Below are positions 42,813 to 46,971 of a DNA stretch of 49,437 nt, one piece after another. The first letter of the stretch is position 1; each line of letters starts with the position of its first letter. Source of the stretch: Saprospiraceae bacterium (GTDB lineage: Bacteria; Bacteroidota; Bacteroidia; Chitinophagales; Saprospiraceae); contig JADLBE010000111.1 of NCBI GenBank assembly GCA_020847915.1, forward strand, positions 1 to 49,437, written 5' to 3'. Under the pieces are notes generated by a model. That model searched no databases. It had not been told where the DNA came from and was given only the letters and a program-made list of their open reading frames with translations. The translations under genes were made by a program, and so were the position numbers.

Positions 42813-44999
42813 TCATCGAATACCGCGACGGGCAAGTTTTTGCCTGCAATCTTCCATCGCATTTTGAACAAACGTTTTTGGATTCTGGTTCAGATTAACG
42901 GCCGACTGCAGGATGTCAAGGTCATCCGCCTGTTCGGGCAACAACTGTTGCATGATTTGTAAATTGTACAAAGCCTGGTTCCAGGCGCCGGCCTCATAAA
43001 AAGTCTCGTACATCCGCTGACGTATGCTGAACTGGGAAATCATGGTTTTCAGGGTACTTTGGCTGCGCAACAACAACGTGCGTTTCCATTCGGTGATGTG
43101 TGCCTGATCTACGCGGATGCGGTTGGGTTTGATGCGCAATTCGACGATGTGGTTCAGGCTGTCGTAGGCTTTCAAACTGTCGAGGGAAAGGTAATAATGG
43201 TGCAAAGCCAGGGCGTATTCATCTTTAAAAAAAAGCGAATCGCCCAAAAAGAGGTTTTCCTGAACAATGGAATGGTGCAGTTGCTGAAACCGGCGGGTAA
43301 TGCCGAGTTCGCGTTCCGGATCGGCTGGTGGAATACCCTGACTCAACACCCATGATTTGAACGGATTGGAGGCCAGCTCCTCCAGGGCCGGGACGGCGGC
43401 GTTGTAAAGTTCGTCGGCGGCATTGCGCGAAGCCTGGCGCATGTCGCTGTGGAGGGTATGTACCCAGTTCCAACCGAACCAGACGGCAAATATCAGGGTT
43501 AAAATAAGCGATGCGACCGACCACACCGCCACCCGCCGTGCCAGCCTGCGCCGTTCGGAAAGGTCACGAATTTGGGCTTCGGTAGCTTCGCGGCGTTTGG
43601 CTTCCTCGAGCAGGCGCTGTTCCAGTTCCGCCTTTTCCCTGTCTGCCTGCTCCATGTTGCGCCTGGTATCGCGCGAAGTGATGATGGCAGGCAACAACGT
43701 ATCGTGGCTGATTTCGTAGTAATAATCGTCTAGCCTGAGTTCTTTGCGCAGCAGGCGTGTCTCTACCAGTGTATCCAGAAAATCATGGTTGACGCTCCAG
43801 GTGTTGGTCAGGAAATCATCCACCATACTGCACCGGCGTCCAACGGGTGTAACCAAACTTTCCTCAATGAGGCAACGGGCCGTACGGATAAACATGGCCG
43901 GATCATCGATCCGACGACCGGTGCGACGCGCGTAGGTTTCCGGCAAATTTTGCAGTTGTTTCTGGTAAAAATCGCGGATTTCCCGGTCGAGTCCGGCATG
44001 CCCGTCGTAATAAGTACTGCCCACCAAAAAACCTGCCGGCTGGTTCTCAGCGATGATTTTTTCCTCAATGTGCTGACAGAGGATTTGCAGGTTGAACGCT
44101 TCAATTTCATCGCGTTGCCGGAGCGTCGGAAGTGCTTCCCCGGCTGTTTGCACGTCCCTGTCGCTGCGTCCGGCCAAAAAATCGAGTATTTCCGCCATGG
44201 ATTCCGGATGGTAACCAAACGTCGGACTGGCCCATGCACCCGCCGCAGCGGCCGGCGCCTCAATGGCCGCCTGAGCCTGTCTGCGGTTGAGCGGCTGAAG
44301 CTGGTATCTGTTTCGGAGGATGTTGGGTATAAGCGGGCTGATGTCGTCGAGCAGGTGCAAAAAATCGGAACGGATGGAAATGACCACCCGCAGCTCGGGT
44401 TGTTTTTCCCACCATTGCATGAGCTCTGAAGTGAGGCCTGCTTCACCAGACTGGAACCGTTGCAAAAGGTCATAACGCACAGCTTCGGGCATGGCTTCGT
44501 TGGCCAAATCGGCCAGGTCTGCCAGAAATTGTTTCCTGCTGCTATCGCTGTGGGCCAGGGTGAACACCTCTTCAAACTGGTCGAGCAGCAGCACCGGTGT
44601 GGCGGGCATACCGTCGAGATCGAAATCGAGTCGTTTTATGTTTTCCCAAAGCGTGGGATTCATGGTGTGCGCGGCATCGCGGCTGTCTGTTTGTCCTACA
44701 AACGGGTGTTTGCCCAGCACCGTGCGCACATGGTCGTTGAGGGGTATTGTCGTATTGTCGAGGCGCAAAAACAAAGGTGCGAAGCCCTGTTTTTCAAGTT
44801 CGGGCGCCACGCCTGCCTGGAGCAGGGAAGTTTTGCCAATGCCCGATTTGGCAAACATAACCACCAGTCTTTCCCGTACGATGAGGTTGGCCAGCCTTTG
44901 GATGTCCTCCATACGGCCGTAAAACACGCCGCTTTGGCTGCGCTCAAAGGGTTTCAGGCCCGGATAACGACGCGGAAGCTGCTCGGCGTTGTTGCTCAT
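42813..44999 (-). CDS. nSTAND-type P-loop NTPase with TM and C-terminal helical/TPR-like region
   Basis: YPGLKPFERSQSGVFYGRMEDIQRLANLIVRERLVVMFAKSGIGKTSLLQAG (Walker A), TPVLLLDQFEEVFTL (Walker B), VVISIRSDFLHLLDDISPLIPNILRNRYQLQPLNRRQAQAAIEAP; TM VAVWSVASLILTLIFAVWFGW. Confidence 0.9.
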   Translation of the reverse strand: MSNNAEQLPRRYPGLKPFERSQSGVFYGRMEDIQRLANLIVRERLVVMFAKSGIGKTSLLQAGVAPELEKQGFAPLFLRLDNTTIPLNDHVRTVLGKHPFVGQTDSRDAAHTMNPTLWENIKRLDFDLDGMPATPVLLLDQFEEVFTLAHSDSSRKQFLADLADLANEAMPEAVRYDLLQRFQSGEAGLTSELMQWWEKQPELRVVISIRSDFLHLLDDISPLIPNILRNRYQLQPLNRRQAQAAIEAPAAAAGAWASPTFGYHPESMAEILDFLAGRSDRDVQTAGEALPTLRQRDEIEAFNLQILCQHIEEKIIAENQPAGFLVGSTYYDGHAGLDREIRDFYQKQLQNLPETYARRTGRRIDDPAMFIRTARCLIEESLVTPVGRRCSMVDDFLTNTWSVNHDFLDTLVETRLLRKELRLDDYYYEISHDTLLPAIITSRDTRRNMEQADREKAELEQRLLEEAKRREATEAQIRDLSERRRLARRVAVWSVASLILTLIFAVWFGWNWVHTLHSDMRQASRNAADELYNAAVPALEELASNPFKSWVLSQGIPPADPERELGITRRFQQLHHSIVQENLFLGDSLFFKDEYALALHHYYLSLDSLKAYDSLNHIVELRIKPNRIRVDQAHITEWKRTLLLRSQSTLKTMISQFSIRQRMYETFYEAGAWNQALYNLQIMQQLLPEQADDLDILQSAVNLNQNPKTFVQNAMEDCRQKLARRGIR

Positions 45000-45049
45000 G
45001 TTGGGTAAAAAGTGTGTTTAATTGGCTTCAACTGGTTGACAAGGTAAGG

Positions 45050-46414
45050 TTAGCCCAGTGTTTCCACGTATTTTTTCAACGTTTCAGCAATGTCGGAAAG
45101 GTGCATGTCTTCCTGTCCGTTGCCAAATACCGGTTGGTTTTTGGTGGGCCGTGTGGTTTTCAACATGCCCAGGGGTGTACCGTCGAGGCTCATGGTTTTG
45201 AGCACGATGGGCATCACCAGGAAACGTGCGCGCGGGTTGTTGCGCGTGGCCAGGTCGTCGAGCAGGGCAAGTGCCGGATTGGCGTCGTCGAAAAAGTCGG
45301 CCGAAATGAGTGGCAAAACCACCTGGCATTGTTCCATTTTTTCCCTGATCCAGACCCCGACATCACCGGCACCGACGGCCTCGCGCAGGGTGTGTACGCG
45401 GAGTTTGAGGGGTTTGAGGTGTTTGATGAGCTGCTGACAGGCCTGGTCGTCGGTGCTTTCGTTGTGCAGGATAAGCACGTCGGCAAGGGCTGAACCGGAG
45501 TCGCTCACAGCATGCCCTTCGATGTTGTGAAAATGTCCGGTAAGGTTGGATACAAACGTTTCGATGTCAACTTTGGGAAATTCCATGCGGAATTCGCCCT
45601 GAAAAAACACCTTCGCGTGTGGCCCTGCATCGGGTTCGCCTTTCAACGGGTAAGCGAAAGGTTGGATGTTGTTGCGGCTGCTTTTAAACAACGCGTCGAA
45701 AAGCAGGCGCATGCTCCAGTCCTCAAAATCAAAACCCATAAACAGGTAAAAGCGCGGCATGTTGAAAGCCGCAAGCAGACTGTCCGGCAACCTTTCGTGT
45801 TGTGCGCCGGTAATTTTATTCACATAGCCAAGCTGGTCGCCGTAGGTAAGCACCAGCGATTCGGGTTTTTTGTAAAAACCAAAAAGGTTGTACACGAGCG
45901 GCGGTGCATCGTCGCCGAAAGTGTAAAGCGGGTCGGGACTGCTTTTGCGGAAATTGTAAAAATCAAACTGGTAATCGCGCACCGACTGAGCGTAGTAACG
46001 GGCGAAAAAGTCGTCGGGCGACGTGTTGATGATGATTTTAAATGGCAGGTCTGCCAATTGCTCGAGCATGGGGTGCAGCTCGGCTTCCCGCTCTGCTTTT
46101 TGGTAAAACTCCTGAACGGCCGCGATGATCATGGTGTCGGACAGGATGTTGCGCATGCGAAGGGTGCTGCACACCTGGGTAAGCGAGTCTTCTTCCGAAG
46201 GGGTAAGGGATAAGTTGTGTACCTGTACCAGGTGTCGGGCGCACATTTCGGTAAGTGGCTTGTAGGAGCCGTCAGGTTGCCGGGCGGCGATGGCGGCGGG
46301 ACCCAGAAAAAGCACACAACTGCCGTCTCGGATTTGTCGGGCAATGTTCTGGTACAAAACGGCCGGTAGTTCGGCAGACGTACCGGCGTCAGGACGGATA
46401 TCGGTTTGCGGCAT
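45050..46414 (-). CDS. SIR2-like + C-terminal TIR-like domain protein
   Basis: IARQIRDGSCVLFLGPAAIA, LPFKIIINTSPDDFFARYYA, PLVYNLFGFYKKPESLVLTYGDQLGYV, MPRFYLFMGFDFEDWSMRLLFDAL (SIR2-like); ADVLILHNESTDDQACQQLIKHLKPLK...WIREKMEQCQVVLPLISADFFDD (TIR-like). Confidence 0.8.
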   Translation of the reverse strand: MPQTDIRPDAGTSAELPAVLYQNIARQIRDGSCVLFLGPAAIAARQPDGSYKPLTEMCARHLVQVHNLSLTPSEEDSLTQVCSTLRMRNILSDTMIIAAVQEFYQKAEREAELHPMLEQLADLPFKIIINTSPDDFFARYYAQSVRDYQFDFYNFRKSSPDPLYTFGDDAPPLVYNLFGFYKKPESLVLTYGDQLGYVNKITGAQHERLPDSLLAAFNMPRFYLFMGFDFEDWSMRLLFDALFKSSRNNIQPFAYPLKGEPDAGPHAKVFFQGEFRMEFPKVDIETFVSNLTGHFHNIEGHAVSDSGSALADVLILHNESTDDQACQQLIKHLKPLKLRVHTLREAVGAGDVGVWIREKMEQCQVVLPLISADFFDDANPALALLDDLATRNNPRARFLVMPIVLKTMSLDGTPLGMLKTTRPTKNQPVFGNGQEDMHLSDIAETLKKYVETLG

Positions 46415-46421
46415 GATTATA

Positions 46422-46468
46422 AGTTCGAAGTCCGAAGTCCGAAGTCTTCGGACTTCGAACTCTGAACT
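46422..46468. repeat. Heptamer hairpin (GAAGTCC)n / (GGACTTC)n in leader of SIR2-TIR gene
   Basis: agttcgaagtccgaagtccgaagt-cttcggacttcgaactctgaact. Confidence 0.9.
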
Positions 46469-46587
46469 GATAAAGGTACAAATTATACCTTACAAAATAC
46501 GTACCGCTTTGCATGGGTGTTGCTTGCGGGGTGGAGCGTTATCTGGCTGACGCTTCTAATGAACCTCTCGGCTGATTGGTTATTGCG

Positions 46588-46859
46588 CCAACCACGAAGT
46601 GGTTGAATATGAATAGCTCCGGGTGAAACCCGGGGTTATGGTCCCCACGGGCCCGCAACCGCGAAGCGGTTGAATATGAACTCAGCCAGGAAAAGAGTGT
46701 AATCAAGCATTATTTCAAAAAGTCTGATCTGATGGCTATAATGTATTGTACAATAGCTTTATTGAGTTCATGTTCAACCGCTTCGCGGTTGCGGGCCCGC
46801 GGGGAAAACTACCCCGGGTTTCACCCGGAGCTATTCATGTTCAACCGCTTCGCGGTTGG
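46588..46859. repeat. Palindrome with 97-nt arms containing AACCGCGAAGCGGTT and CCGGGTGAAACCCGG mini-hairpins
   Basis: arms 46588-46684 and 46763-46859 aligned by eye, about 9 mismatches. Confidence 0.92.
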
Positions 46860-46938
46860 CAACTCACGGTTCATGCTCGGTTGGTGTCATGTCGACAGGA
46901 GGGAGACACCTGATGCCGCCGCATCAAAATAAATAAAA

Positions 46939-46971
46939 AAGCGTCGCCCCGAAACCATCGGGGCGACGCTT
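46939..46971 (-). terminator. intrinsic terminator of hemD
   Basis: 14-bp perfect stem AAGCGTCGCCCCGA/TCGGGGCGACGCTT followed by TTTTTTATTTATT on minus strand. Confidence 0.85.

Follow-up and report, generated by a model that had tools for sequence, protein, structure and literature searches.

The palindromic element in the window (the whole stretch of 49,437 nucleotides from a Saprospiraceae bacterium that was analysed) is probably a non-autonomous, REP- or MITE-like unit of a Y1 (HUH) single-strand transposase system. Its architecture, loop spacing, strand polarity, stem covariation and dispersal are observed directly, as is the adjacency of the same units to transposase (tnpA) genes in other genomes; mobility and processing as single-stranded DNA (ssDNA) are suggested by analogy with known enzymes. 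The element resembles a REP/REPIN or a MITE in the way it would work, and the features expected of a MITE are found: it is short, lacks an open reading frame (ORF), occurs in dispersed copies and has ends in common with autonomous loci, which lie in other genomes. No description of these repeats was found in open-access papers, subscription papers being outside the search.

Anatomy and dispersal of the element

An inverted-repeat search of the window delimits two palindrome arms of 98 nt each, which are 91% complementary and separated by 78 nt. Each arm consists of three GAA-loop mini-hairpins in the order A1-B-A2, and the loop-to-loop spacing is 29/38/67 nt on both sides. The four copies of the A hairpin named in the preliminary description, two direct and two inverted, are all present. 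Scanning the window for the hairpin sequence with up to 2 mismatches gives 5 matches against 0.58 expected, a number that 0 shuffles reached. As ssDNA, the 274-nt element has a predicted fold of -116.9 kcal/mol (z = -22), and a single arm is predicted to keep its mini-hairpins (z about -3.5 to -4.1). The features, with window coordinates, are:

46527-46586, no strand: outer left flank, common to other copies in the own genome (CTAATGAACC..GATTGG..GCC); candidate part of the mobile unit
46587-46684, plus: left arm, A1-B-A2 unit (inverted repeat; loop spacing 29/38/67)
46590-46604, plus: hairpin A1, AACCAC-GAA-GTGGTT (AACCACGAAGTGGTT) (sequence match, fold)
46605-46618, plus: linker or 3' foot GAATATGAATAGCT; other genomes have it in the conserved form GAAYATRAATA
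46619-46633, plus: hairpin B, CCGGGT-GAA-ACCCGG (CCGGGTGAAACCCGG) (sequence match, fold)
46657-46671, plus: hairpin A2, AACCGC-GAA-GCGGTT (AACCGCGAAGCGGTT), core GCGAAGC (sequence match, fold)
46685-46762, no strand: 78-nt spacer where full loci carry tnpA; without an ORF of note
46763-46860, minus: right arm, A1-B-A2 unit inverted (inverted repeat; loop spacing)
46776-46790, minus: hairpin A2 inverted, AACCGC-GAA-GCGGTT on this strand (sequence match)
46814-46828, minus: hairpin B inverted (sequence match)
46843-46857, minus: hairpin A1 inverted, AACCGC-GAA-GCGGTT on this strand (sequence match)
46861-46921, no strand: outer right flank, common to other copies (GGTTCATG..GTGTCATGTCGAC..GAGACACCTGATG); candidate part of the mobile unit

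Extraordinarily stable DNA mini-hairpins are reported to combine a loop of the GNA or GNNA type with two or more G-C pairs (PMC4686876). The A hairpins conform strictly to this rule in loop, adjoining G-C pairs and covarying stem; the B hairpins close with a T-A pair, so only the A hairpins fall strictly within it.

The element is dispersed in its own genome (assembly G000: 5.22 Mb, 534 contigs, 97.6% complete). The search for all hairpin copies that the preliminary description had proposed found AACCRCGAAGYGGTT 51 times exactly and 11 times with one mismatch, on about 24 contigs; the reversed control gave 5. The full array (A1 B A2 ... A2 B A1) is found on about ten contigs and halves or single hairpins on others; full copies are approximately 73-89% identical to the window element. 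In nine of 12 copy loci the hairpin lies within no ATG-started ORF of at least 100 residues (the exceptions are 103-145 aa long), so the copies are mostly intergenic. Some lie at contig ends, as expected of repeats, which break assemblies. Since copies in the own genome also have further outer flanks in common, beyond the arms, the true ends of the element are uncertain. Stretches similar to AGGTGTCTCCCT...GACATGACACC border many copies and constitute a further repeat nested with the element, and one copy (L049, G000:C373) has the 19-nt CAGGTGTCTCCCTTCGGTC inverted at both sides.

In the window, the element sits between hemD and a SIR2-domain gene, directly upstream of the latter. Four sibling genomes (G004, G007, G008 and G009) have a homologue of this SIR2 gene after hemD, with no palindrome in the intergenic region between the two. 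This fits an insertion in the lineage of the window, although the sequences are too diverged for exact edges. Among species of one genus, the number of matches ranges from 0 to 66. Several neighbouring features were also noted. On the minus strand (42813-46414), a 728-aa nSTAND1 NTPase adjoins the 454-aa SIR2-domain protein, and the two are possibly a defence pair. Immediately upstream of the SIR2 gene (46417-46473), tandem 7-mers GAAGTCC form a separate palindrome whose 28-nt arms are separated by 1 nt, and just after hemD a 14-bp hairpin, AAGCGTCGCCCCGA/TCGGGGCGACGCTT (46939-46971), is followed by T on the minus strand and is likely a terminator.

The stems covary. The preliminary description had pointed to one compensatory base pair that left the fold intact, and this proves to be one instance of something general: a search of sibling genomes with AACCNNGAANNGGTT, in which four N are free, yields mostly complementary pairs in copy-rich genomes, and the two variable stem positions read AC/GT, GC/GC, CC/GG or CT/AG. 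A wider scan covered 85,462 species, with one genome per species, and used only the loop, right half and linker (CGNAGNGGTTNAANNTNAATAGC) as query. Matching stretches numbered at least 116 and came from groups that include Bacteroidota, Parabeggiatoa, Thioploca, other Thiotrichaceae, Thermoguttaceae, Cloacimonadota and Thermoanaerobaculia. The left half, which was not part of the query, is fully complementary in 122 of the 137 analysable matches listed (chance, 0.1%), several of which come from the same genomes and are not all independent. A B hairpin follows in 84 of these 122 matches, 67 of them at the same offset (shuffles, 2.8%), with 36 different B stems. Stem covariation is thus non-circular and holds across phyla. 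The covarying copies on which the preliminary description had made its reading depend therefore occur both in the own genome and across phyla.

A Y1 transposase lineage beside the hairpin units

In genomes of the same genus, many Y1 genes of TnpA subclass 1.2 type sit among arrayed mini-hairpins whose loops are GNA or GNNA and whose 6-7-bp stems differ from gene to gene. One Y1 lineage (MSTYTQILYQIVFSTKYR...; L108, L141, L144 and L145) is found in genomes carrying AACC..GGTT hairpins, which lie within approximately 300 bp of the lineage gene at L141, L144 and L145. When 289 genomes of the class are searched with a profile built from these four proteins and a Cloacimonadota homologue, 19 prove to have members of the lineage, set apart by a score gap (at least 204 versus at most 163 bits) and with 1-2 tnpA copies per genome. 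Matches to AACCNCGNAGNGGTT occur in 13 of the 19 genomes with the lineage gene versus 73 of the 270 without it (Fisher p = 4e-4; 289 genomes). The proteins match Pfam Y1_Tnp and NCBIfam transpos_IS200 and, among PDB entries, the IS608 and ISDra2 transposases (E 1e-7 to 3e-5). They are about 148 aa long, low in copy number and characterized by Y[VI]xNQxxHH, DH[IVL]H and W[Q/E]. The Y---Q--HH signature has been assigned to TnpA subclass 1.2, listed as without REPs, and by its motifs the lineage is of this type (motif table of PMC6006769).

The hairpins are concentrated at the lineage genes. A total of 65 GNA/TNC hairpins lie within 150 bp of 23 such genes; dinucleotide shuffles give 0.3, and 25 control loci (73 kb) contain 3. 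At least one lies within 150 bp at 20 of the 23 loci and within 600 bp at all 23; the remaining three have none within 150 bp. Polarity is pronounced, upstream hairpins being GNA by 33:1 and downstream hairpins TNC by 30:1, which indicates that the hairpin units form inverted ends around tnpA. Many loci read [A1-B-A2]-tnpA-[A2-B-A1], and the gap between the gene and the last loop is often only 12-30 nt; inverted A1-B-A2 units flank the lineage gene in other Bacteroidota and on a Cloacimonadota contig. Around lineage genes, as in the named loci, the preferred loop-to-loop distances are 29, 38-41 and 67-69 nt. By its anatomy and loop spacing the window element is therefore a locus of this type, in which the 78-nt spacer replaces the gene. 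Of 115 three-nucleotide loops no farther than 300 bp from a lineage gene, 90 have GNA or the complementary sequence, and four-nucleotide loops are often GNNA (GACA, GCAA, GATA). The 3' foot is conserved, approximately as [GA]AAYATRAATA; the GT[AG]G tetranucleotide was not found at the 5' foot of lineage loci, which is unconserved.

These loci bear on the proposal, in the preliminary description, of REP/RAYT-like processing. It had made that proposal depend on a ssDNA-binding transposase in carrier genomes, and Y1 transposase genes do adjoin the same hairpin units elsewhere. The REP-like part is borne out by this adjacency and by the covarying copies, but the enzyme is of the subclass 1.2 type rather than a class-2 RAYT and there is no GTAG foot. 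The hairpin repeats stand as described, but their extent needs amending: the unit is the whole inverted A1-B-A2 / A2-B-A1 arrangement, equivalent to a tnpA locus minus its gene.

The search for Y1_Tnp or RAYT genes that had been recommended gave a divided answer in the own genome. It has two Y1_Tnp genes, both with the Y---Q--HH signature and both from other lineages of subclass 1.2 type, but no classical RAYT was found, and neither was the cognate tnpA lineage in the own assembly (97.6% complete). The cognate gene may be absent from the draft, may have been lost after amplification, or one of the two other Y1 enzymes may have taken its place. The Y1 gene on contig C48 (L031/L033, G000:C48 1213-2394) has 240-270-nt palindromes on both sides with CCGC-TTTA-GCGG hairpins, and the AACCGC-TAAA-GCGGTT hairpin of these palindromes recurs on seven other contigs; these TTTA/TAAA-loop hairpins are a second REP-like family in the own genome. 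The other gene (L034, G000:C480 818-1192) has GCGCTCC-GCTA-GGAGCGC palindromes on one side. Elsewhere, other Y1 lineages of subclass 1.2 type (L095, L133, L089, L135, L148) have tandem arrays of their own hairpins, such as 13 copies of GACCTC-GGA-GAGGTC (L095) or 10 of GGACCTC-GCAA-GAGGTCC, and at L148 the upstream array is open in frame with the transposase. Hairpins in one genome (G019; AACCCC-GAA-GGGGTT, spacing 42/48) were rejected as the same unit and probably belong to another lineage.

Alternative explanations and a possible mechanism

Could the hairpins act in RNA, as terminators, attenuators or mRNA-stabilizing structures, the link to tnpA then reflecting regulation of that gene? The intergenic position of the element and the short distance at which hairpins often end from tnpA (12-30 nt) would suit such a role, and GNA triloops are stable in RNA too. 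However, Rfam gives no match above a family's cut-off, the hairpins are not followed by T-run terminators, gene-less copies are dispersed, both orientations occur in one unit, and loops such as GACA and GATA fit the GNNA rule of DNA and not the GNRA rule of RNA; we consider a function in RNA unlikely. A known RNA family was also rejected, as all Rfam matches are sub-threshold, the best being MIR841 with 84.1 of 200 bits. The MIR841 match covers 46606-46842 on both strands with E down to 6.5e-18, since any long perfect hairpin fits such a model. An integron attC site was dropped by eye, there being no RYYYAAC/GTTRRRY box order.

Somewhat less probable still is that the element derives, as a MITE, from an ordinary DDE transposon, bounded in truth by the outer flanks with their AGGTGTCTCCCT-type inverted repeats and carrying hairpin units that were only picked up inside it. 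The flanks that several own-genome copies have in common beyond the arms, and the inverted 19-nt repeat at L049, speak for this reading, yet arms with the same spacing occur without outer flanks at tnpA loci and in other phyla, and several own copies (L041, L047) are without the outer repeat. Another possibility, very improbable in our estimate, is a domesticated chromosomal site that no longer moves and, like a BIME, is bound by host proteins. Host proteins do bind BIMEs and REPs (PMC2817692), and about two dozen loci keep covarying stems in an assembly from which the cognate lineage is absent; a fixed site is nevertheless hard to reconcile with a range of 0 to 66 matches within one genus and with siblings that keep the gene order but lack the element at hemD-SIR2.

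A non-autonomous unit of a Y1 system could work as follows. Binding of folded ssDNA hairpins by IS200/IS605 and TnpA_REP enzymes is strand-specific, and these enzymes cut next to the hairpin (PMC8266576). By analogy, GNA hairpins would fold when the DNA is single-stranded, for example at a replication fork; TnpA would bind a GNA hairpin together with the conserved 3' foot GAAYATRAATA on that strand, and its tyrosine would cut and rejoin beside the hairpin. Acting in trans, the enzyme could thereby move or copy units that lack the gene. Ready folding and resistance to melting and to nucleases are probably what selection favoured in the C(GNA)G hairpins.

With rather less assurance than for the window element itself, we favour a wider REP-like system, not yet described, in which each transposase of subclass 1.2 type owns a set of GNA/GNNA mini-hairpins, one lineage uses the inverted A-B-A triple unit, and gene-less copies populate Bacteroidota, giant sulfur Gammaproteobacteria, Planctomycetota, Cloacimonadota and others. 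No mobile-element role for GNA/GNNA mini-hairpins was found in the literature searched. If true, this system would be the natural counterpart of the laboratory d(GCGAAGC) mini-hairpin and would provide a natural setting for ultra-stable GNA mini-hairpins, known mainly from chemistry. It would also offer a candidate substrate for a transposase subclass reported to have none, give REP-like systems a second mode of recognition, by GNA loop and 3' foot instead of the GTAG foot, and account for many palindromic repeats that lack annotation in Bacteroidota and in giant sulfur bacteria.

Comparison with known systems

The closest parallels are with systems of Y1 enzymes. Class-2 TnpA_REP (RAYT) REPtrons (PMC6006769, PMC8266576 and PMC2817692) likewise have a low-copy Y1 gene, inverted flanking palindromes, dispersed copies and strand-polar hairpins. 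They differ in having a GT[AG]G 5' foot, a Y..NP motif and single REPs, whereas here there are a 3' foot, Y---Q--HH, a fixed A-B-A triple and GNA loops. The element is not classed among the classical REPs, since a search for the GTAG foot and for the class-2 protein motif found neither. TnpA subclass 1.2 (PMC6006769) is alike in length (148 aa), in its DH[IVL]H, W[Q/E] and Y[VI]xNQxxHH motifs, in low copy number and in its occurrence in Bacteroidota. That paper, however, describes the subclass as REP-less and largely confined to Cyanobacteria and Bacteroidetes, while the present lineage is flanked by hairpin units and is also found in Cloacimonadota. The IS200/IS605 elements (IS608 and ISDra2; subclass 1.1) have a homologous HUH/Y1 enzyme and, as here, subterminal hairpins, but they are multi-copy and near-identical, with one hairpin per end. 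Here, the many near-identical transposase copies per genome that mark subclass 1.1 were not found, each genome having 1-2 lineage genes, and there are inverted triple hairpins and many gene-less copies.

REPINs (PMC3116915) and PATEs (as cited in PMC4853749) are also short, gene-less palindromes thought to be mobilized by a Y1 enzyme encoded elsewhere, but their sequences and foot are different; the unit described here has six mini-hairpins in two inverted arms. Finally, the d(GCGAAGC) DNA mini-hairpins (PMC4686876) follow the same loop rule, and the core of A2 is exactly GCGAAGC. There they are oligonucleotides and parts of aptamers, whereas here they are natural genomic repeats.
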